From NCBI GenBank assembly GCA_024516035.1, contig CM044961.1, positions 4,887,022 through 4,951,021 on the forward strand: 64,000 bases of DNA, given 5' to 3'. Under the pieces are notes generated by a model, which did no database searches, was not told where the DNA came from, and was given only the letters and a program-made list of their open reading frames with translations. How positions within the stretch are numbered: the stretch's first letter is position 1; each line of letters begins with the position of its first letter. This document shows, piece by piece, positions 5,677 through 63,920 of the stretch. A program made the position numbers and the translations under genes. This stretch comes from Bactericera cockerelli. Lineage: Eukaryota > Arthropoda > Insecta > Hemiptera > Triozidae.

Positions 5677-6028
5677 TGCACTGGTAGTCAAGTGGTTAAA
5701 GTGCTAGTCTGGTAATCCAGGTAGCGAAGGGATCCGTTAGTTCGAATCCCACCCAGTGCATGAATTTTTCCTCATTAGTTTGAGCTTGTGACCACATAAT
5801 AATAAGACTCTAAGGGCGGAATTAATAGACGTTTTTGTAATACCTCTGTGGTGCTAAGGCACGGATTGCGTACTGTGTAAGATAGGGAAAACCGATACTT
5901 ACCAACGACTTAAGTTATTGATGTTGTCTATTAATTCCGCCCTAAGGGTTAGGTGGTAGAAAATGCTTTGAGCATTAACCTCGCCTGGTGGTTAGCTTAC
6001 ACGAAAGAGTGTTATTATTATTATTATT
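5677..6028 (+). mobile_element. SINE A, full length, split by a MITE
   Basis: Head 5677-5761: acceptor-like ends GCACTGG/CCAGTGC, A box TAGTCAAGTGG, B box GTTCGAATCCC. The anticodon arm is about three bases too short for a real tRNA. Body 'ttgtgaccacataataataa' is cut by a 129-bp MITE at 5814-5942, then resumes 'gggttaggtggtagaaaatg' and ends in (ATT)n. Confidence 0.85.
5811..5945. mobile_element. Harbinger-like MITE, 129 bp, TSD TAA
   Basis: Element 5814-5942 with perfect 17-bp terminal inverted repeats (GGGCGGAATTAATAGAC) flanked by TAA at 5811-5813 and 5943-5945. A 3-bp TWA duplication and GGGC-type ends are typical of PIF/Harbinger. A second copy of exactly the same length is at 31506-31634. 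The SINE A host gives an empty-site reference (gactctgagggttagg). Confidence 0.8.
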
Positions 6029-13445: not shown

Positions 13446-14504
13446 GCTTTCTAGAAGCTATCAGAAGGTATTCTGTAAGCTGTTAGAAGTTTCAAGGTTT
13501 CTGTAAGCTGTGAAAAATACCAAGCAAACAAGAACTATAATCAAACTCTCAGAAATCTTGCAATGACAGTTATACGAGGAATTTTTGCATAGAGCAATTC
13601 CATTTTGCAAAATTTATGAATCAACTACCTACTCTACTATCTTAAAGGCAAATAGAATTTTGGAGTTTCTTCAGTTTTAAGGAACTTACTGTTTTGGCAG
13701 TTTTTCTTTGAGCTCATTCATCCTGCTGTTGATAAACATAGTATTGAATTCCATAGCTTAATTATTGTGCTTTTTAAGCTATTTCCTTGATCAGGAAATT
13801 TAGATAATTTTGATATTTCATTTTTTGTTTGATTCTTTTCTTTTTGTTTTGGGTTTGTATTTTTTATATCATTTTATTTATAGTTTTCTTATTATTCTGT
13901 ACATATTTACTATTTTTGTTTAAATTGCCTATCTGAAAGTTTTTTGAACGATCATTTATCTCTGGTATATTAATTATTTCTAATATTAGAAATCGGAAGT
14001 ATTGTGTTTTTTGCCTTTTTTTACTAGCTCAAAAGTACTATTGGGGGTGTATCTGTATTATTTTTCAATATTTTTTTTTTTTTTTTTTAATACTTTATTT
14101 CTCCCTCTATATTAGAGGTTCAAAACTAACTAACCTACATAATTATCATGTAAAAAAGAAATTCTCAGAAAGCTAATAATTTCTCAATGAAATTTTCCCT
14201 AAACCCTTGAAAAGTTCACGTTAAGTTTCTTAGTTTAAAGTTGCCTAACCAAGCTAGTCTGAAAAAATCAGTTTAAACAGAATTGAATTTAAAATAAAGA
14301 TAAAAAAACACTTGGAGCAAACTTAAATTTATAAAAAAAAACCCTCACTTTGAACTAAACACTATAACAAAACAAGCCAAGTTTCGAATGGGTGTTCATC
14401 ATTGGAGTGACATCAAAAATAACAGTCGTATTTGGGACTCGAATCACCAACCTTGAAGTTGTGAGTCAGACCTTATTTTTTAATCGAACTAAAAACCCAC
14501 ATTA
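13446..14504 (+). other. MESD 3' UTR and following spacer
   Basis: Just after the stop are three near-repeats of 'agaagctatcagaagg/tgtaagctgttagaag' (13452-13515). No clean AATAAA close by; the poly(A) site is not assigned. A repeat H palindrome is at 13974-14005 and a T18 run at 14070-14088. Confidence 0.45.
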
Positions 14505-14645: not shown

Positions 14646-14932
14646 AATCCTGTTTATCGGAAGTATTTTTTTTTTTTTAATGCTTACACTTGCAATAATA
14701 CTATTGCATTTACGTGTATGACAGTTAAAATAATATTTATTCTGATATCTGAAGATAGTATAGTATAGTATAGTAGTGCTTAATTTAGATTGTCGGCTCG
14801 AGACAGGCAGTCCCATTATGCTAACAGTTTAATATAGCACCTCTTTCTTTATTGTATATTTTATACAGGATATTATAACTAGAAAAACATAATAACTAGA
14901 AGATAAACTCGGAAGTACCAATCATTTTCACC
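14646..14932 (+). promoter_or_regulatory. Upstream region of MFSD9-like gene
   Basis: Short AT-rich region with (ATAGT)n at about 14755-14775 and a TATA-rich stretch at 14852-14866. It must hold at least part of the 5' UTR. The start codon sits in a strong context (CACCATGG). Confidence 0.35.
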
Positions 14933-16645
14933 ATGGGTCTGACGCCGCACAAAATCTCCTTCATCTGTTTCCTGGACCTGTTCGCCGCTAGCCTCATAGT
15001 TCCCCTCATGAACAACTACCTGCGCGGGGAAATCCGCCTGTCCAATTTCTCCATCGGTCTCATTTCCTCCACCTTTTCCCTGCTGCAAATCGTCAGCGCC
15101 CCCACAGTTGGCTATCTGAGCGACTTGTGTGGCCGAAAGTCCATCCTGCTTTGCTGTCTACTCGTTTGCGTTTTCTCCTATCTCCTGCTTGGTCTTTTTC
15201 GCAACGTGTTTGTGATTGTGTTCGTGCGAGTTCTTCTAGGTCTGTTCAAACACACCCAAGTCATCTGCAAAGCCTACGTCAGCGATATTTGCGTCGACTC
15301 GTCCAAAGCGTACAGCCAACTCATGACGGTCACGTTTCTCGGTTTCTTCATAGGGCCGGCTCTCGGCGGACATATCATCACGTACGAGAACGGATTCATG
15401 ATTATCTGCTGCATTGCCGCGTGCGTGTTTCTCGTGAATTTCGTCTATTCGTATTGGGTTGTGACCGATGAGAGGCGGTCGTCATCGACGGGCGGATTAT
15501 CTGAAGGTGGGAAAACTTCGGGCGATGGAAAGCCAGGTAAATATTTACCCGGCGAAGAGAGGAGTCCGCTACTGGACGAAGAAACTGACGGAACATTAGG
15601 TAACAGTTGTTGTAATTCAAGTGAATCTGATGCTGAAACGCAAATATTCAGAGGTAAGTCTCACAAGAGAGACACGAGGAAATCCCAGAAAGAGTCACCT
15701 ACCGATCTCGGAACTTACGAGGATGATTCCCACAAAATTAGACACAAGAAGTCCAAAAAAGGTGAATCCAAGAAACTGCTTTCTACGAGTCGAAAATCCC
15801 ATAAAACTGATGCTGAAACCCCCGAAGAAGTGACACCCACTGTCTTTACTGTTCATGAGACGTTGGGAGATGATTCCCAAAAAACCAACAGCAGAGAATC
15901 TATTAAAGTAGCTACCGATGACAAACCCCACAAAAGCGTGTCCGAAGAGACCACACCAATCGCCGAAAAGACCACACCAATCGCCGAAAAGTCCACACCA
16001 ATCGGTGCTTCTCCCGACATTTCCAAGTCCACTTTCCTCTCCTACTGCAAGGAGACTTTCAACATCGAGTGGTCCCGCTACTCGGGCATCTTCCTCATCA
16101 AGTTCCTGTACGCCCTCTCCATGTCTCTTTTCTACAGCAACTACATATCCGTCCTGACGCACAATTTCGACTCCTCTTCACAGCTAACTGGCTACACCGT
16201 GTCCTTCCAGGGGCTCGTAGGGTCTTTCGCGAACATCTTCATAAGTTTGAAACACAGGGACAACTACACAAGCTTGTTCCTGAGCTTCTTTCTTCTCAGT
16301 GCGTCCGTTCTCGGGTTATACCTCTGCACGCACCTCTACGTCTTTGTCGTCTTGCTCATCCCTCTGAGTGTGAGCTCTAGTCTGATCCGCGTGCTGTGCA
16401 TCAACATCACGATGACCGCCAGTGACGCCAATCGGAACGGCAACATTAGCGGCATCTACAACAGTCTGACGTCGATTGCCAAAGTTGTGACGCCCCTGCT
16501 CGGTGGGTTAGTGAGTGATTGGGTGCAGGATAACTACAAGGTGACGTTCCTGGTGGCTTTTGTGTTCGCCCTCCTGGGGGTGATTGTGTCGGGGGTGGTT
16601 ACTCTGAGGGCGCCGCGTAGCGTTAAGGAAACTAAGACGGAGTGA
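14933..16645 (+). CDS. MFSD9: MFSD9-like major facilitator transporter, intronless
   Basis: 570 residues in one frame. The N half has six membrane segments (about 8-28, 38-58, 71-89, 91-110, 129-150, 154-176) with the MFS motif A at 60-70 (GYLSDLCGRKS) and the MFSD9-type GLFKHTQVICKAYVSDI at 103-119. A long hydrophilic, Ser/Lys/Glu-rich loop follows at 178-365 with the 7-residue repeat TTPIAEK/TTPIAEK/STPIGAS near 340-358. The C half (366-570) supplies six more segments and NGNISGIYNSLTSIAKVVTP near 502-521. MFSD9 is a proton-coupled-type orphan transporter; the substrate is unknown. Vertebrate MFSD9 is shorter and multi-exon. The lack of introns suggests a retrocopy or intron loss. The membrane parts are GC-rich at third positions; the loop is AT-richer, as for a young, loosely constrained insert. 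The MFSD10/14 families are less likely alternatives. Confidence 0.82.
   Translation: MGLTPHKISFICFLDLFAASLIVPLMNNYLRGEIRLSNFSIGLISSTFSLLQIVSAPTVGYLSDLCGRKSILLCCLLVCVFSYLLLGLFRNVFVIVFVRVLLGLFKHTQVICKAYVSDICVDSSKAYSQLMTVTFLGFFIGPALGGHIITYENGFMIICCIAACVFLVNFVYSYWVVTDERRSSSTGGLSEGGKTSGDGKPGKYLPGEERSPLLDEETDGTLGNSCCNSSESDAETQIFRGKSHKRDTRKSQKESPTDLGTYEDDSHKIRHKKSKKGESKKLLSTSRKSHKTDAETPEEVTPTVFTVHETLGDDSQKTNSRESIKVATDDKPHKSVSEETTPIAEKTTPIAEKSTPIGASPDISKSTFLSYCKETFNIEWSRYSGIFLIKFLYALSMSLFYSNYISVLTHNFDSSSQLTGYTVSFQGLVGSFANIFISLKHRDNYTSLFLSFFLLSASVLGLYLCTHLYVFVVLLIPLSVSSSLIRVLCINITMTASDANRNGNISGIYNSLTSIAKVVTPLLGGLVSDWVQDNYKVTFLVAFVFALLGVIVSGVVTLRAPRSVKETKTE
15950..16012 (+). repeat. 21-bp tandem repeat inside the transporter loop
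   Basis: Three in-frame copies of 'accacaccaatcgccgaaa' plus 'ag', encoding TTPIAEK units; the last copy diverges. In-frame expansion in the cytoplasmic loop, away from membrane segments. Confidence 0.85.
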
Positions 16646-17817: not shown

Positions 17818-18066
17818 AGTGGGGTTTAACGTCGCTTTCAACTGCCATGGTCATATCACGACGGGGGTTTTACCCTCCATTCGCAGGAAACTCACAAACC
17901 TGCTACTCACATTGACCTCACCCAGCCTGAGTGGGGCCGGGAAAAGCCAGCGTCACGAGAATTAGAATTTGAATGGTCACCCATCCAAGTCTTAACCTCG
18001 CTGGATGACGCTTAACTTCGGTGTTCTGAAGGGAACCGGTGTATTCAACATGCCATCGACGCTGGC
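17818..18066 (-). mobile_element. 5S-SINE, complete, long subfamily
   Basis: Best reference copy. On the - strand the head reads 'gccagcgtcgatggcatgtt', then 'aagttaagcgtcatccagcg', 'aagacttggatgggtgacca' (5S C box), 'cgtgacgctggc', the core 'ggccccactcaggctg...' and tail 'agttgaaagcgacgttaaac'. A T13 run at 17803-17815 (A-tail on the - strand) closes it. Confidence 0.85.
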
Positions 18067-26977: not shown

Positions 26978-27176
26978 ATAATAATACTTTTTAGTGGAAG
27001 GTAACCAACAGGCGAGGTTAATGCTCAAAGCATTTTCTACCACCTAACCCTCAGAGTCTTATTAATTTTTGGTCGCATACTCAAATAAATGAGGAAAAAT
27101 CCATGCATTGGGTGGGATTCAAACCACTTTATCTGGATTACCAGACTAGCGCCTTGTCCACCTGACTACCAATGCA
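26978..27176 (-). mobile_element. SINE A, full length
   Basis: Tail (AAT)n at 26978, 'ttagtggaaggtaaccaaca', 'ctaccacctaaccctcagag', 'ggtgggattcaaaccacttt', head end 'ctgactaccaatgca'. Confidence 0.8.
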
Positions 27177-31637: not shown

Positions 31638-31651
31638 GTACACTGATTTGG

Positions 31652-31742
31652 GTAGCATCACGAAGTCTTCTACCCGCTGGACGTGGCTTAACTTCGGTGA
31701 TCCTACCAGAACCAGTGCATTCAACGCGTCATCGACGCTGGC
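31652..31742 (-). mobile_element. 5S-SINE head, short subfamily
   Basis: - strand: 'ggccagcgtcgatgacgcgt', 'tgaatgcactggttctggta', 'ggatcaccgaagttaagcca', 'agacttcgtgatgct'. The 5S C box is deleted. Core and tail absent. Confidence 0.75.
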
Positions 31743-34330: not shown

Positions 34331-34597
34331 ATAATTGCAGTAAGTTTACGTAATTGCAGCATTATTGTTGCGTGTAAACAGAGATTTAAAAAAAACAGCA
34401 ACATCAAAACACACCACCTAGCGTTTGTCCCCTCCACCTTATCATCCACTCATCAAAGTTATCACAACAAAAGCACCACAAGGGATGGCACTTCCTATTT
34501 CCTAGTCAGATTTTCCTATTTTCCTAGACGCTTCTTATAATAGATTTTTATTGCTTCCGAGTCTGCTGAGATTAGAACAGGGCCTTGCCACCGTCAA

Positions 34598-34740
34598 TGG
34601 CGCGTTAAATGCACCAGTTCTAGTAGGATCACCGAAGTTAAGCAATGTCCAGCGAGGTGAATACTTCGTGATGCTGGCATTCCTGCCCAACCCAGGCTTG
34701 GTGAGGTTAATGTGGTTAGTAGGTTTGTAATTCTATTCTA
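34598..34740 (+). mobile_element. 5S-SINE, short subfamily
   Basis: 'aatggcgcgttaaatgcacc', 'tagtaggatcaccgaagtta', 'agcaatgtccagcgaggtga', 'atacttcgtgatgctggcat', core 'cccaacccaggcttggtgag'. Followed at 34770-34830 by a repeat K-like stretch. Confidence 0.8.
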
Positions 34741-34837
34741 TACTTCGGCCCTTATAGTTAACTGTGACAGGTTGAGACTTGAGTGACGGTGGTCTGGCTT
34801 ATCTTTGTTATACTCCTATTGTCTTGTTAATCTTGTT

Positions 34838-35150
34838 GGGGGACTATAAACAGGGAGTAGATCAGCAGTCTGGCAAGTGGACTATAAAGAGGGAGTAGAC
34901 CAGCAGTCTGGCTGGTGGACTATAAACAGGGAGTAGACCAGCAGTCTGGCTGGGGGACTATAAACAGGGAGTAGACCAGCAGTCTGGCTGGGGGACTATA
35001 AACAGCGAGTAGACCAGCATTGGCTTGGTTTTGGGGACCATTGTCAATTATTAGCCTCTTTGTAAAGACAGTGGTAGAAGTGCTGAGTCTTTCCTCCACT
35101 GTCTGGCTACCATCGGCATCGTTCACGATGACGACAACCTATGATGATAA
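34838..35150 (-). mobile_element. Repeat F with five VNTR units
   Basis: 34838-35020 holds five copies of a 38-bp unit (actataaacagggagtagac, cagcagtctggctg), with small differences. Then the unique part 'ggcttggttttggggaccat' to 'catcgttcacgatgacgaca'. Frames across the array are repeat artefacts. Confidence 0.85.
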
Positions 35151-38700: not shown

Positions 38701-38987
38701 TTCCTCGGACGATCTTGTCTTGTCTGCAATAGTCTGCATGGTTTACCATTTTGAAAATATACAGTCGAATAAACGTATTGAAAATTGAATTAACATCTTG
38801 AACCATTCTGTATGAATATGAAAGGTCACACTGTTTTAATTACTAATTTTTTAGTGGCCAAGATCAGGTGAAAGTGATATTCCGGCTATGGTTGGGTATG
38901 AGGTGACCTTAGCAAACCTGAAGACATGTTTAGTTGGTCCGGTAAGTCTGGCTAGCCAGACAGCCTTAATGACGTAAACAATGACGT

Positions 38988-40142
38988 CACCTTTGCAAGC
39001 ACATGTCTAGTTGATCAGGAAACTCAGTATCGATGACAATGACGTCACCTTTGCAAGCACATGTCTACTTGATCAGGAGACTCAGACTTGATGACGTCAC
39101 CTTAGCAAGCACATGTCTAGTTGATCAGGAGACTCAGACTTGATGACGTCACCTTAGCAAGCACATGTCTAGTTGATCAGGAGACTCAGACTTGATGACG
39201 TCATCTTAGCAAGCACATGTCTAGTTGATCAGGAGACTCAGACTTGATGACGTCACCTTAGCAAGCACATGTCTACTTGATCAGGAGACTCAGACTTGAT
39301 GACGTCACCTTAGCAAGCACATGTCTAGTTGATCAGGAGACTCAGACTTGATGACTTCATCTTAGCAAGCACATGTCTAGTTGATCAGGAGACTCAGTAT
39401 TGATGACAATGACGTCATCTTATCAAGCACATGTCTAGTTGATCAGGAGACTCAGACTTGATGACGTCATCTTATCAAGAACATGTCTAGTTGATCAGGA
39501 GACTCAGACTTGATGACGTCATCTTGGCAAGCACATGTCTAGTTGATCAGGAGACTCAGACTTGATGACGTCATCTTATCAAGAACATGTCTAGTTGATC
39601 AGGAGACTCAGACTTGATGACGTCATCTTATCAAGAACATGTCTAGTTGATCAGGAGACTCAGACTTGATGACGTCATCTTAGCAAGCACATGTCTAGTT
39701 GATCAGGAGACTCAGACTTGATGACGTCATCTTATCAAGAACATGTCTAGTTGATCAGGAGACTCAGACTTGATGACGTCACCTTAGCAAGCACATGTCT
39801 AGTTGATCGTGAGACTCAGACTTGATGACGTCACCTTAGCAAGCACATGTCTAGTTGCTCAGGAGACTCAGACTTGATGACCTCATCTTAGCAAGCACAT
39901 GTCTAGTTGATCAGGAGACTCAGACTTGATGACGTCACCTTAGCAAGCACATGTCTAGTTGATCGTGAGACTCAGACTTGATGACCTCATCTTAGCAAGC
40001 ACATGTCTAGTTGATCAGGAGACTCAGACTTGATGACGTCACCTTAGCAAGCACATGTCTAGTTGATCGTGAGACTCAGACTTGATGACGTCACCTTAGC
40101 AAGCACATGTCTAGTTGATCAGGCGACTCTGATATGACGTCA
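38988..40142. repeat. 52-bp minisatellite with CRE sites, about 22 units
   Basis: Unit: 'tgatgacgtcaccttagcaa', 'gcacatgtctagttgatcag', 'gagactcagact'. Most units contain the palindrome TGACGTCA; a few are mutated (gacttcat, gacctcat). Each also has CACATGT and TGATCA. A degenerate precursor lies at 38905-38945. Variants (tgatcgtgag, cttatcaagaac) recur at intervals of two or three units, which suggests block duplication. Confidence 0.95.
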
Positions 40143-40430
40143 CGAGATTTTGTCACCTGATGCGGAATGCTGACCTTGCAGACAGATCGCTAGAGTAATG
40201 TCAGGCAGAGAAAAACGTTAGCACACCTGATAAGAATAATGGCCTGAATGAAATGTGCTGCAAATTAGCAGTAGTAGTAAGAAAAATAGTATTATTATAA
40301 ACATTAGCAGTATTCGTACGCTAATAGTGGGTGAAACAATCGGCGCATTCGAATCCCGGCCGAGCAAATGTCGAATTACTCCCTAAAAATACAACATGCA
40401 TGTAAAGAGGACGAAAGAAAGAAAAAAAAA
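40143..40430. other. Spacer
   Basis: No gene seen. 'gcattcgaatcccggccgag' at 40343-40362 looks like an orphan tRNA-type B box. Confidence 0.4.
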
Positions 40431-40680: not shown

Positions 40681-41420
40681 CTTTTGACCGACATTTGTTA
40701 GCGTTTGGCGGTTCTGGCTATACGATAGTAGATACGAAAAATTTATAGGAACAACTTTTTCTTACAATTAAAAAATAATAGGGGTCTATTCTGATCATTT
40801 TTTTTTTTTTTTTTTTTTTTTTTGATATCTTGAACTTTCTGGACCTCGGCCCCAATTTAACGGTATTTTGGGGGGGGGGGGGGGGGTACCCGCTTTGGCT
40901 AACTTTTTTATTATTCATCCTATATGGGGATTGTGACATATCAAAGCTAATGACTTTGAGGTGCTGATTACGAATTTGGCATTGTTTTTTTTTGCTATCT
41001 GTTACCGTTGAGTCACCAGTGGCGGACTTTGACTTCTTTTCGGGGGATAAGGGAAGTCGTAATTTTTTACCATCAACTCTGTTAAGAGCGCCAATGATTA
41101 GTGTTCATGTCTATGGTACCATATTAAATTTGTTCAACCTCCCCCGGGGGACTAATATTCAAGCCATCTACGAACGTCTCTATTTTGATGTTACACTGTA
41201 TATTATTATTACAGACTTCTATGAAAATGATTATAGAGAATTTAATTACTTATGTTGGTCTTGATGGCAAAATTATTATACCTCACATGAACATTATTGG
41301 CAGTATAGGTCCCTATAGTTTGCACAAGGGAAGAATTGAGCAGTAGGTCAGTTATACCGACGGTGCCAATCTATGAGGGTGCATCGCTGACATCTTCGTA
41401 GCTATTGGTACTGTCTGGTG
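40681..41420. other. Spacer with homopolymers and array relative
   Basis: T25 at 40798-40823, G17 at 40870-40886. 40920-41030 ('atgactttgaggtgctgatt', 'cgttgagtcaccagtggcgg') matches part of the 61144-61876 tandem unit. The 90-codon frame at 40992-41264 shows no domain. Confidence 0.5.
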
Positions 41421-43024: not shown

Positions 43025-44250
43025 AATGAAATGTTATCAAAGCCAACATTTACTAGCAGAATGCCTCCTTGCAAAAGGGTTCTTTCTTCTTTTGCACAAA
43101 ACTCGAAAAAAACAATTCCTCTAAAGATCGCAGCAGGATGTGGTCTGTGAAAAGTCCAATATTACTCTACTAAACTGTACAGAAGCCCTATGCAAAACAG
43201 TAGAGTAGAAAAGGCGTTTTCAAATATTCATGGCGTGCAAACTAGGTTGATTACCCGGTTAAAAAAAATCAATAAAAGTATAATTACTATGCCAATTATG
43301 CTACTGTTTGATTATTTCAAAATTATACGAAGGAATCTCAGGTCTATAGACTCTAAAGTGACCATCAGGTGATTATCTTATACATGTGCAGGGGTGATAA
43401 GTAGAATCTGCACTCTGCTTTGATAACTGGTATAAATAGCCATCCGAGATAGCATGTGCATAACCATCCCAGATAGCAGACAGAAATGTTAGCGACAGCA
43501 CTTATCATGTGCTCATGTCTATGTACAACTTCTCAAATGAGAAGTTCTCATATGATAAATATCATCTCTTTTTTTAATACTCTTTATTTTTAATTTTAAA
43601 TTACAAAATACAATTGTAGAAATAAAAAAAATATAGATAAAAATAGAAGCATTTTATACAAGAGATAAAATTATGAATTGAGTTATAGAAGAGTAAATGT
43701 GTGCTTAAAGCATGTCCTCCGTTTTAAAAATACAGAAGATATAGCATATATATCTTATACAGATATATGCATTCAGTTGTGTGTGCTTCAGCGATAGTAC
43801 ACTTGTCAGTCAGCTGATTTAGGACTTGATTCTGGTGAATTCTGCTGATTAAGTTTCCTTTGATAAAGGAACATGTGCTGATTGAAGGCGTGTGATGAAA
43901 CGATTTGGAGTCAGTATTATAAGGACCTGAAGAAGTGACATAGCTAGAATTTCATTGCTTTACAATCAGATTAGCTTTGTTCTTTGCTAATATTGCTGAT
44001 GGTCTGTTTTATATAGACTCCTTAGTTCAGCAGCAAATATTTTTCATGTCAAAGGAAAAAAAAAAATGACCAACCATTTCAACACCAATTGGGATAGTTT
44101 GCCTTAACAATCAAAATACTGGTATAGGTTTCCTTAATAATGGAAATATTGAGATAGGTTGCCTTAACAACTGAGCAACTGGGATTTGTTGAGTAAATAA
44201 ATATCAGATTCTAAATTTGAATTCCACAAATGGTTACAGTTGTTTGTAAA
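43025..44250. other. Repeat M copy, then unannotated AT-rich DNA
   Basis: 43025-43165 is another repeat M (atgttatcaaagccaacatt, aagatcgcagcaggatgtgg). 43166-44250 shows no gene. 44080-44190 has three near copies of 'gggataggttgccttaacaa'. Confidence 0.5.
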
Positions 44251-44801: not shown

Positions 44802-45076
44802 AGTTCTTTTTGTACGAAAATATAGGTTCATACACTACTGAAACATTATGAGTAACAAAAGTAAATAAGCTGGGAAAATGTGAATGTACCAAGTCGTCTT
44901 TTTTTTAAGATATAGTTTAACAGTAGGTATTTAATTTTTCTAAGGTCAATATGTATTTGGATCACAGATTTGGCCCCCTGAGTCCCCAAAGTGAGTAAAT
45001 AATATATAAATTTGCAATGCAAGACCTTTTGATTCTATATTCTACATGATTAGGTTTAACTTCAGTATATCAGTAT
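44802..45076. other. AT-rich spacer
   Basis: Nothing recognised. Confidence 0.4.
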
Positions 45077-45283
45077 AATCAGTATAAACAGAAAAGTGAG
45101 AAGTTGTACTAGATGTACATGAATATTAGAACATACCTGGACAGCTGTTTCGAGCTTATTTGCTCTCATCAGCAGGTAATAGTTCTGAATATTCATGCCA
45201 TCAACTAACCTCTCTATTTTAATCAGTATAAACAGAAAAGTGATAATTTGTACTAGATGTACATGAATATCAGAACATACCAG
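45077..45283 (-). mobile_element. Retrozyme-like element, about 1.4 units of 144 bp
   Basis: The segment 45079-45139 is repeated at 45223-45283 (tcagtataaacagaaaagtg, tactagatgtacatgaatat), giving a 144-bp period. Between them is a hammerhead ribozyme on the - strand. Read on -, the element starts at 45283, the exact homologue of the first base after the ribozyme cleavage site, and ends near 45077. A partial dimer starting at the cut site is what reverse transcription of a self-cleaved, circular or multimeric RNA would leave. Confidence 0.75.
45117..45198 (-). ncRNA. Type I hammerhead ribozyme
   Basis: On the - strand: CUGAUGA at 45172-45166; helix II GAGC (45165-45162) / GCUC (45155-45152) closing an AAAUAA loop; GAAA at 45151-45148; UC ahead of the cut at 45141-45140, with cleavage predicted between 45140 and 45139. 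Helix I is long: CCUG/CAGG next to the core, an internal loop, AGAAC/GUUCU, then ATGAATAT/ATATTCAT. Helix III is tiny (ACA/UGU around GC); the self-complementary ACAGCUGU would favour dimers. Short helix III and dimer action are known for hammerheads in Penelope-like elements and animal retrozymes. All core bases are present, so it should be active. Confidence 0.85.
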
Positions 45284-45599
45284 GTGCTAAATAGACTTTC
45301 AATGCTAAATAGACCTCGGAGCCTCCTATGAGGGACACCAAAACACCTGGATTTACAAATGCCAAAGAAATTAATTTGTAATCATCTTATCAAGGTGAGG
45401 TAATGAGTTCTCTAACGTTGACCTTTTCTTACCCGAATACTCTACGGCAGGGGTCACCACGAGTATCTCTCCCGGAAATAAGACCATGCTTTTTACATTA
45501 GGTATTTAAGAAAATAAAAACTATAAAATTATCATTTTTATATAAGAATCGGCCTTTTATAAGGAAATCTTTAAAATCTCTTATTAATGAAAGGCAATA
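45284..45599. other. Spacer
   Basis: Starts with a small duplication ('ggtgctaaatagac', 'aatgctaaatagacc'). 45449-45462 'caggggtcaccac' recalls a hAT end but lacks a partner. Confidence 0.4.
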
Positions 45600-48677: not shown

Positions 48678-48851
48678 GAGAGAGGATTAATTACAATACT
48701 CTAATTATTCTCATTCTTTAGTGAAGCCGACAGAAACACACCAACATTCCTAATCAGTTGATTAGTACTATTCAGATATTTGTCACTCCGTTTTAAATGT
48801 AGTTGCAGATAAACGCACTCTTGGGGCATAATTTATATAGGCCTTCCTCTG

Positions 48852-49158
48852 GACTATAAACAGGGAGTAGACCAGCAGTCTGGCTGGGGGACTATAAACA
48901 GGGAGTAGACCAGCAGTCTGGCTGGGGGACTATAAACAGGGAGTAGACCAGCAGTCTGGCTGGGCGACTATAAACAGGGAGTAGACCAGCAGTCTGGCTG
49001 GGGGACTATAAACAGGGAGTAGACCAGCATTGGCTTGGTTCTGGGGGCCCTTGTCAATTATTAGCCTCCTTGTAAAGACAGTGGTATTAGAAGTGCTGAG
49101 TCATTCCTCCACTGTCTAGCTACCATCGTTCACGATGACGCCACCCTATAATGATGAT
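48852..49158 (-). mobile_element. Repeat F with five VNTR units
   Basis: 48852-49028 is five near-identical 38-bp units. The unique part has one 3-bp insertion ('ggtattagaagtgctgag') compared with other copies. Confidence 0.85.
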
Positions 49159-55939: not shown

Positions 55940-56473
55940 GTAAAGTTGACCACTACAGATAGACCACTACAGGTAAAATCACTCTCCATGTAAATTTACG
56001 AGGTACTTTTTAATGGCCTTGTAAATACCGATAAAAAGTGAGAAAAAAAAGCCAGCTTCGATGGCACGTTGAATTAACCAATTCTTGTTCAGTCACTGAA
56101 GTTAAGCAACGTACAGCGCGGTTATAACTTGGATGGGTGACCATTCAAATTCGAACTCTCGTGATGCAGGCTATTCCCAGCCCCGCTCAGGATGAGTGAG
56201 GTTAATTTGAGTAACTGTACGATGTTTTCATTGGTTTGTTTCCCTATTGATCTTTCTTGTGTATTACCAACAGCGCATTGTGGAGAGGCCTTTTGCTTCA
56301 CCACAAATAAATCATAGTTTAACCTTTTTTAAATTTTCTTTTATTTTTCTCTCCCAACATGTCTTTCTCGTAACGCTGGTGAGCAGAAGGTAACTTAATG
56401 TTTATGCAACCGTAGATTCAGAAAATTGTTCCTCAATTTTTGTTTGTAGATCCTATTCACAAATTTATGTATA
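55940..56473 (+). mobile_element. Presumed intron start with 5S-SINE, long subfamily
   Basis: 56052-56236 is a 5S-SINE: 'gccagcttcgatggcacgtt', 'cagtcactgaagttaagcaa', 'cgtacagcgcggttataact', 'tggatgggtgaccattcaaa' (C box intact), core 'gccccgctcaggatgagtga'. 56265-56310 'tggagaggccttttgcttca' resembles 37530-37560. Confidence 0.75.
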
Positions 56474-58154: not shown

Positions 58155-58352
58155 ATCATAGGGTGGCGTCATCGTGAACGATGGTAGCCAGACAGTAGAG
58201 GAATGACTGAGTACTTCTACCACTGTCTTTACAATGAGGCTAAGAATTGACAAGGGCCCCCAGAACCAAGCAAATGCTGGTCTACTCCCTGTTTATAGTC
58301 CCTCAGCCAGACTCCTGGTCTACTCCCTGTTTATAGTCCCCCAGCCAGACAA
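58155..58352 (+). mobile_element. Repeat F with two VNTR units
   Basis: 'agggtggcgtcatcgtgaac' to 'caagggcccccagaaccaag', then two 38-bp units ending 'gtcccccagccagac'. Confidence 0.8.
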
Positions 58353-61876: not shown

Positions 61877-62173
61877 CCTCAACGATGGAATTAAGATTCT
61901 AAACTTAGAATCTAAGAAATTAAGATAATGAAAAATATCAAAATAAAATACTGTTTATACTGATATACCGAAAATTTTGAGACTTTTTTCTATGCGCAAT
62001 GCATTACCTACCTACTTTTTTTTAACCTTATTTTTTTTAACGAATTACATCGTAAAACGTTTTCATCAAACTTTTAGTTACCTACTTCATGTCAAACTAG
62101 AATCTAGGTAGTAAATATTTAGAACTGGTATCTAGCTGGTATGTATCATGGGATTTTCACTATAAATACCTAC
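61877..62173. other. AT-rich spacer
   Basis: Nothing recognised. Confidence 0.4.
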
Positions 62174-63040: not shown

Positions 63041-63418
63041 CACCGATCTCAGTAGCTTGATCGATAAGGCGGCGGACATTTTTTTTAATTTTCTGTTTTT
63101 TATTTACAAAATAAACTTCATCTACAGACAATAAGGTTATACCCACTTTCAAAATATAAAAATCTTGTGCTGAATGTGAGGAAGAAAATTTGTAATAAGG
63201 AGGTCGGAGGTTCAAGTCCCGGTTTCAGCGTAGATTTAGTAAAGCGAGTTTAAGTAGTTGTGATATTGTTTTGCCTGGTGTCCGATGGTACCGGTAAACC
63301 ATTGTCGATTTCTTACGCTGAGCCTGCAGTTTTGGGTTGGATGTAACGCTGGGTGTAACGCTCAAACCTATTTTTCCGATCATACAATATCACGAAAGTT
63401 ATTAACACAAATTTGATA
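63041..63418 (+). mobile_element. SINE B split by two insertions
   Basis: Host SINE pieces: 63041-63077 (ccgatctcagtagcttgatc), 63191-63267 (ggaggtcggaggttcaagtc), 63388-63418 (atcacgaaagttattaacac). Between them lie about 113 bp and 120 bp of unrelated sequence; the second has 'ggtaccggtaaaccattgtc' and a doubled 'gtaacgctgggtgtaacgct'. Confidence 0.75.
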
Positions 63419-63526
63419 ATTTTTAGAGACAGATAACTTTTTTTTTATATTAAGATTTTCAATTTTTACAGACATTTTACAATAAATTTAAAATGCTCAG
63501 GTATAGTTTGACGTAATGGGACTCAC

Positions 63527-63709: not shown

Positions 63710-63920
63710 GTTTAACGTCGCTTTCAACTGCATGGTCATATCACGACGAGGGTGTTACCCTCCATTCGCAGGAAACTTACAAACCTGCTACCCACATTCA
63801 TTCAAACATTCTAAATTGGGCCGGAATGCCAGCATCACGAAGTCTTCACCTCACTGGGCGTTGCTTAACTTCAGTGATCCTACGAGAAACGATGCATTCA
63901 ATGCGCCATCGACGCTGACA
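63710..63920 (-). mobile_element. 5S-SINE, short subfamily, in HAD gene intron
   Basis: - strand head 'gtcagcgtcgatggcgcatt', 'gtaggatcactgaagttaag', 'caacgcccagtgaggtgaag', 'acttcgtgatgctggcattc', tail 'gcagttgaaagcgacgttaa'. It lies inside the intron just upstream of the last exon. 63921-64000 shows nothing further. Confidence 0.8.

Follow-up and report, generated by a model that had tools for sequence, protein, structure and literature searches.

A type I hammerhead ribozyme sequence in a 144-nt partial tandem repeat of a psyllid genome, probably the insertion of a small retrozyme

The hammerhead sequence and its fold

The 64-kb stretch of the Bactericera cockerelli genome analysed here (the window) carries on its minus strand the sequence of a type I hammerhead ribozyme, set within a partial tandem repeat (Table 1). 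The CUGAUGA core (45172-45166) is followed by a 4-bp helix II, in which GAGC (45165-45162) pairs with GCUC (45155-45152) beneath an AAAUAA hexaloop, then by GAA (45151-45149) and by ACAGCUGU (45148-45141), which makes up helix III. C17 falls at 45140, and GUC precedes the predicted cut between 45140 and 45139. When the fold is constrained to the hammerhead, a 3x1 internal loop and a single bulge break up helix I; this internal loop and the hexaloop of helix II are candidates for a tertiary contact between loop 1 and loop 2, and 16 helix I pairs lie outside the inner six that are scored by the descriptor described below. The parts that define a type I hammerhead (CUGANGA, GAAA, an NUH triplet before the cut and three helices, with the molecule open at helix I) are all found, in a fold that is permitted but is not the one of minimum energy.

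Table 1. Features of the hammerhead locus, with positions in the window
Feature	Positions	Strand	Basis
Type I hammerhead ribozyme, long interrupted helix I (6 + 5 + 11 bp)	45117..45198	-	Rfam RF02275 at 45119-45189; constrained fold
Compact hammerhead core (helix I, inner 6 bp; helix II, 4 bp; helix III, short)	45134..45178	-	Descriptor match
Predicted self-cleavage site GUC / C	45139..45140	-	C17 position in the hammerhead fold; predicted
Full 144-nt unit, predicted cut to predicted cut	45140..45283	-	144-bp offset repeat
Second unit, first 64 nt, downstream of the cut	45076..45139	-	60/64 identical to 45220-45283
Possible 3' tail TACTGATATACTGA, perhaps a slipped repeat of the unit's last bases TATACTGAT	45062..45075	-	Sequence reading; interpretation putative

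A sequence-only reading of this DNA had proposed a type I hammerhead on the minus strand, with a covariance-model search and a fold of 45117-45198 as checks on it. The search bears the proposal out. The best Rfam family is RF02275 (Hammerhead_HH9), which matches with 34.6 bits and an E-value of 5.8e-5 over the 64-kb window (5.5e-7 when 601 nt are searched), and its alignment recovers the three helices and the 6-nt loop II. This falls short of the family's gathering score (52), and an Rfam search at the curated threshold therefore misses the locus. We take HH9 to be a conserved intronic hammerhead of amniotes, and the match is accordingly one of fold likeness, not of membership. A strict descriptor (helix I of at least 5 bp, helix II of at least 4 bp and helix III of at least 2 bp) gives one match in the window and none in 150 dinucleotide-shuffled control windows. 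Two looser settings also give one match each in the window, with two and three matches across the 150 shuffles. This is the only hammerhead in the window, both by Rfam (reporting E-values up to 0.5) and by descriptor.

It could be argued that a chance look-alike has arisen inside an unrelated 144-bp duplication, since the Rfam score falls under the curated cut-off and the looser settings find occasional matches in shuffled DNA. The E-value over the window, the empty strict control and the 16 helix I pairs beyond the descriptor's inner six make such a coincidence highly improbable; as a sequence, the hammerhead is genuine and beyond chance.

The hammerhead fold is possible for the 82-nt segment at -25.9 kcal/mol, but the unconstrained minimum differs from it, pairing part of the hammerhead core, and reaches -31.9 kcal/mol, a gap of 6 kcal/mol under an energy model that ignores loop contacts. 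The fold z-score of -5.98 was computed for this unconstrained, core-pairing structure and therefore supports a long hairpin, not the ribozyme.

Repeat architecture and insertion ends

The 144-bp period claimed in the earlier reading holds: at an offset of 144, positions 45139-45076 agree with 45283-45220 at 60 of 64 bases, with mismatches at unit positions 2, 13, 37 and 40. In the minus-strand direction one 144-nt unit (34% GC) is followed by 64 nt of a second, in all 208 nt or 1.44 units. The four mismatches between the copies suggest an insertion which is not recent, or one built from a mixed template. The upstream copy carries U at the second position of the unit, and for this reason the second pair of helix I, when closed inside a single cut-to-cut unit, would be a U-U mismatch.

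The 5' end had been placed exactly at the first base after the cut. Its proximity to the cut stands and its exactness does not: base 45284, one past the cut, matches as well, and unit position 2 is mismatched, so that an end anywhere in 45281-45284, some 4 of 144 positions, would fit. The repeat comparison thus places the 5' end no more than about 2 nt from the predicted cut. At the other end, the TACTGATATACTGA tail, which repeats the last bases of the unit, could reflect slippage as reverse transcription starts.

No clear target-site duplication is seen at the repeat ends when 61 nt of 5' flank are compared, for exact matches of 5-12 nt, with 80 nt taken from the 3' end onwards. The flanks share two 6-mers, AGGTCT and GCATTG, and six 5-mers, four of which are parts of those 6-mers. 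The number of shared 6-mers is about that expected by chance; they occur in the same order with different spacing, and they were rejected as a duplication, since in the upstream flank they sit 15-26 nt before the repeat and in the downstream flank tens of bases after it.

A tandem period that contains a hammerhead is also what is found in satellite DNA such as the newt repeats or pDo500 of Dolichopoda cave crickets (PMC2837043, PMC7229834), and the locus might accordingly be satellite DNA spread by unequal crossing-over rather than by retrotransposition. Like the present element, pDo500 is an insect repeat with a hammerhead inside it, for which both single and double mechanisms have been suggested; it differs in its repeat length of about 500 bp, in belonging to another insect order and in having been studied as satellite DNA (PMC2837043, as far as its available text goes). 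A satellite origin is nonetheless distinctly unlikely here, given that just 1.44 units lie isolated in the window and that crossing-over would not be expected to leave one of their ends, as here, at or close to the cut; the amphibian satellites, moreover, are now interpreted as retrozymes in the accessible part of PMC7229834.

Other copies and coding content nearby

Tandem 144-bp copies, a further check put forward in the sequence-only reading, were sought within the window by BLASTN, which found no second locus and no other match longer than 36 nt. The 36-nt match, at 41154-41189 (+), is 86% identical to the sequence that immediately precedes the hammerhead and was rejected as a second copy because no hammerhead follows it. 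Those at 14266-14282, 43518-43535 and 63400-63425 were set aside as weak and short; the matches are mostly AT-rich. Positions 61948-61972 match the 3' end of the element and its tail at 23 of 25 bases, and may represent a strongly 5'-truncated copy or a common tail motif.

Between 39 and 51 kb there are 21 ORFs of at least 65 aa, 20 of which, including the ORF across the element, were scanned without a Pfam match at E<=0.1. The frame translated through the element (45062-45286) drew three candidates from the protein collection, none at E<=1. Low GC (below 50%) and non-coding character, by which animal retrozymes are recognised, are therefore both found at the locus, since the unit is AT-rich and the spanning ORF has neither Pfam match nor protein relative.

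These results bear on a further explanation, that the locus is a fragment of a Penelope-like element, a piece of pseudo-LTR left with its hammerhead by truncation. Penelope-like elements do bear type I hammerheads in tandem or partial-tandem pseudo-LTRs (PMC7761336), and for one of them an internal start of reverse transcription has been demonstrated in vitro (PMC11167929). No reverse transcriptase or GIY-YIG domain lies beside the hammerhead repeat among the 20 ORFs scanned, however, in a search that reached about 6 kb to each side and that shorter or decayed frames would escape; no ORF is recognisable at the locus itself, and a period of 144 nt is too short to fit one between copies. The extended helix I with its internal loop, and the hexaloop of helix II, are also fuller than in the minimal Penelope hammerheads described, in the available text of PMC7761336, as being devoid of helix III or loop contacts. 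A Penelope fragment is on these grounds unlikely, although somewhat less so than a satellite.

In a wider search, the family-specific hammerhead pattern had no match in viral contigs. A general hammerhead pattern, which captures the core only, had one there (L001:982-1015, in an IMG/VR contig of 41.7 kb) and three in genome contigs labelled bacterial (L002-L004).

What the locus can produce

The upstream copy begins past a cut site and the downstream copy ends short of the next ribozyme, so that the locus holds one ribozyme and one predicted cut site. A transcript of it could, by the modelled fold, be cut once. A 144-nt monomer, a circle and a double hammerhead in cis are consequently all impossible from the locus itself; the monomer or circle of about 144 nt anticipated in the sequence-only reading is not available here, and a mobile family would need tandem master copies elsewhere.

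The same reading held a dimeric ribozyme to be likely, on account of the self-complementary helix III. A double hammerhead can indeed form: folding of two strands gives one with an 8-bp helix III at -67.7 kcal/mol, where two separate monomers reach 2 x -31.9. This energy was discounted as evidence, since any long hairpin gives such a duplex in calculation. The argument from self-complementarity is itself weak because, with helix III set at 3 bp, only the central GC need be self-complementary, which would be expected by chance in one case out of four; helix III can alternatively be read as 2 bp closed by an AGCU tetraloop, a form likened to that of invertebrate hammerheads (PMC7229834, in its accessible part). 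A dimeric ribozyme is thus possible, if weakly supported. Most invertebrate hammerheads are reported to cleave efficiently as monomers and amphibian ones to require dimers (PMC7229834, PMC7761336). Many type I hammerheads are also said to be kept from cleaving as monomers by a weak helix III, and dimeric Penelope hammerheads are treated in a study cited there (PMC7761336).

Origin of the element

What can be read directly from the DNA is the ribozyme sequence with its possible fold, the 144-nt period and the two ends of the repeat, of which the 5' end is placed to about 2 nt. Taken together, the significance of the hammerhead, the tandem unit, its 34% GC, the lack of an ORF with a Pfam match and a 5' end near the cut suggest that at this locus a small animal-type retrozyme, non-LTR and non-autonomous, probably inserted once in the psyllid genome, as a partial tandem and probably long ago. 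The unit of the earlier reading holds up as retrozyme-like, with a period just under the published lengths. Animal non-LTR retrozymes have a type I hammerhead with a weak helix III in a short tandem repeat of less than 50% GC (PMC7229834, PMC7761336), with genomic repeats of 150-450 bp and RNAs of 170-400 nt (Cervera and de la Pena 2020, PMC7229834), and insects are among their reported hosts, alongside many other phyla (PMC7229834). The present element resembles those in the available text of PMC7229834 in its hammerhead type, its short AT-rich tandem unit, the form with a 2-bp helix III and a tetraloop, and its insect host; it differs in unit length, in having only 1.44 units and in being known here from DNA alone.

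Several observations weigh against a retrozyme: there is only one copy in the window and no clear target-site duplication, 144 nt is slightly below the published range, the hammerhead fold is not the minimum of the monomer, and the cut-to-cut helix I carries the U-U mismatch. The earlier suggestion that this 144-nt family is something to describe stands in part. No description of a psyllid hammerhead or retrozyme family was found in the literature searched, a body of work in which subscription papers are mostly absent, but the kind is already reported from insects and many phyla (PMC7229834, available text). Judged from sequence, the element probably adds a slightly undersized family member to the known animal retrozymes, not a new kind.

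On the retrozyme interpretation, tandem master copies elsewhere would be transcribed and the hammerhead would cut the multimers at GUC/C into units with 5'-OH ends. A resident Penelope-like or LINE element would presumably supply the reverse transcriptase, which would start inside a unit, 64 nt past the cut, at the TACTGATTA stretch, where slippage would perhaps yield the TACTGATATACTGA tail. The enzyme would then copy back across one uncut ribozyme and run off at the self-cut 5' end, giving an insertion of 208 nt. In favour of the internal start is its counterpart in vitro in a Penelope-like element (PMC11167929). Weighing against a 5' end determined by the cut, hammerhead mutants of that element left insertion in vitro unchanged, the main substrate was unprocessed RNA, and no RNA-seq reads were found to start or end at the cut (PMC11167929); such an end is therefore not a known Penelope rule.

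A more specific form of this scheme is put forward tentatively, and we consider it rather doubtful: a retrozyme of less than 150 nt in which every insertion has the same two ends, 5' at the cut and 3' at an internal start point, the template of reverse transcription being a self-cut linear dimer with its middle site uncut and not a circle.

The form of the template in retrozyme spread, circle or self-cut linear RNA, has been proposed and not shown, and circles are favoured in the accessible text of PMC7229834. With a family whose insertions regularly end on one side at the ribozyme cut, the form of the template would become testable from genome sequence alone. The single insertion described here is a pointer only, and its 5' end near the cut a mildly interesting clue that is worth a genome-wide look.

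Other features of the window

An ORF at 14900-16645 encodes an MFS transporter resembling MFSD9. It has 21 protein matches (among the 7998 candidates sharing most words with it), the top six of which are 60-75% identical over 32-47% of the query and the seventh 33%; four of the top six carry names, two being proteins of Cacopsylla melanoneura and two of Diaphorina citri, which makes a psyllid the most likely host. In genome contigs, 35 stretches fit the pattern of this protein and none was confirmed.

Five stretches resemble 5S rRNA (Rfam RF00001), at 17945-18066 (-), 56051-56172 (+), 31650-31742 (-), 34587-34679 (+) and 63827-63919 (-), of which only one scores above the gathering threshold. 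All ten pairs align, some of them past the 5S part, and the five are probably 5S-derived SINEs. Two similar tRNA-like matches (5678-5760, +; 27104-27175, -), one with an oversized variable region, are possibly tRNA genes or tRNA-derived SINEs. A 38-bp minisatellite unit is common to 34837-35019, 48851-49029 and, inverted, 58277-58350, and may be an internal repeat of a dispersed element. Finally, 22 copies of a 52-bp tandem repeat occupy 38981-40143.
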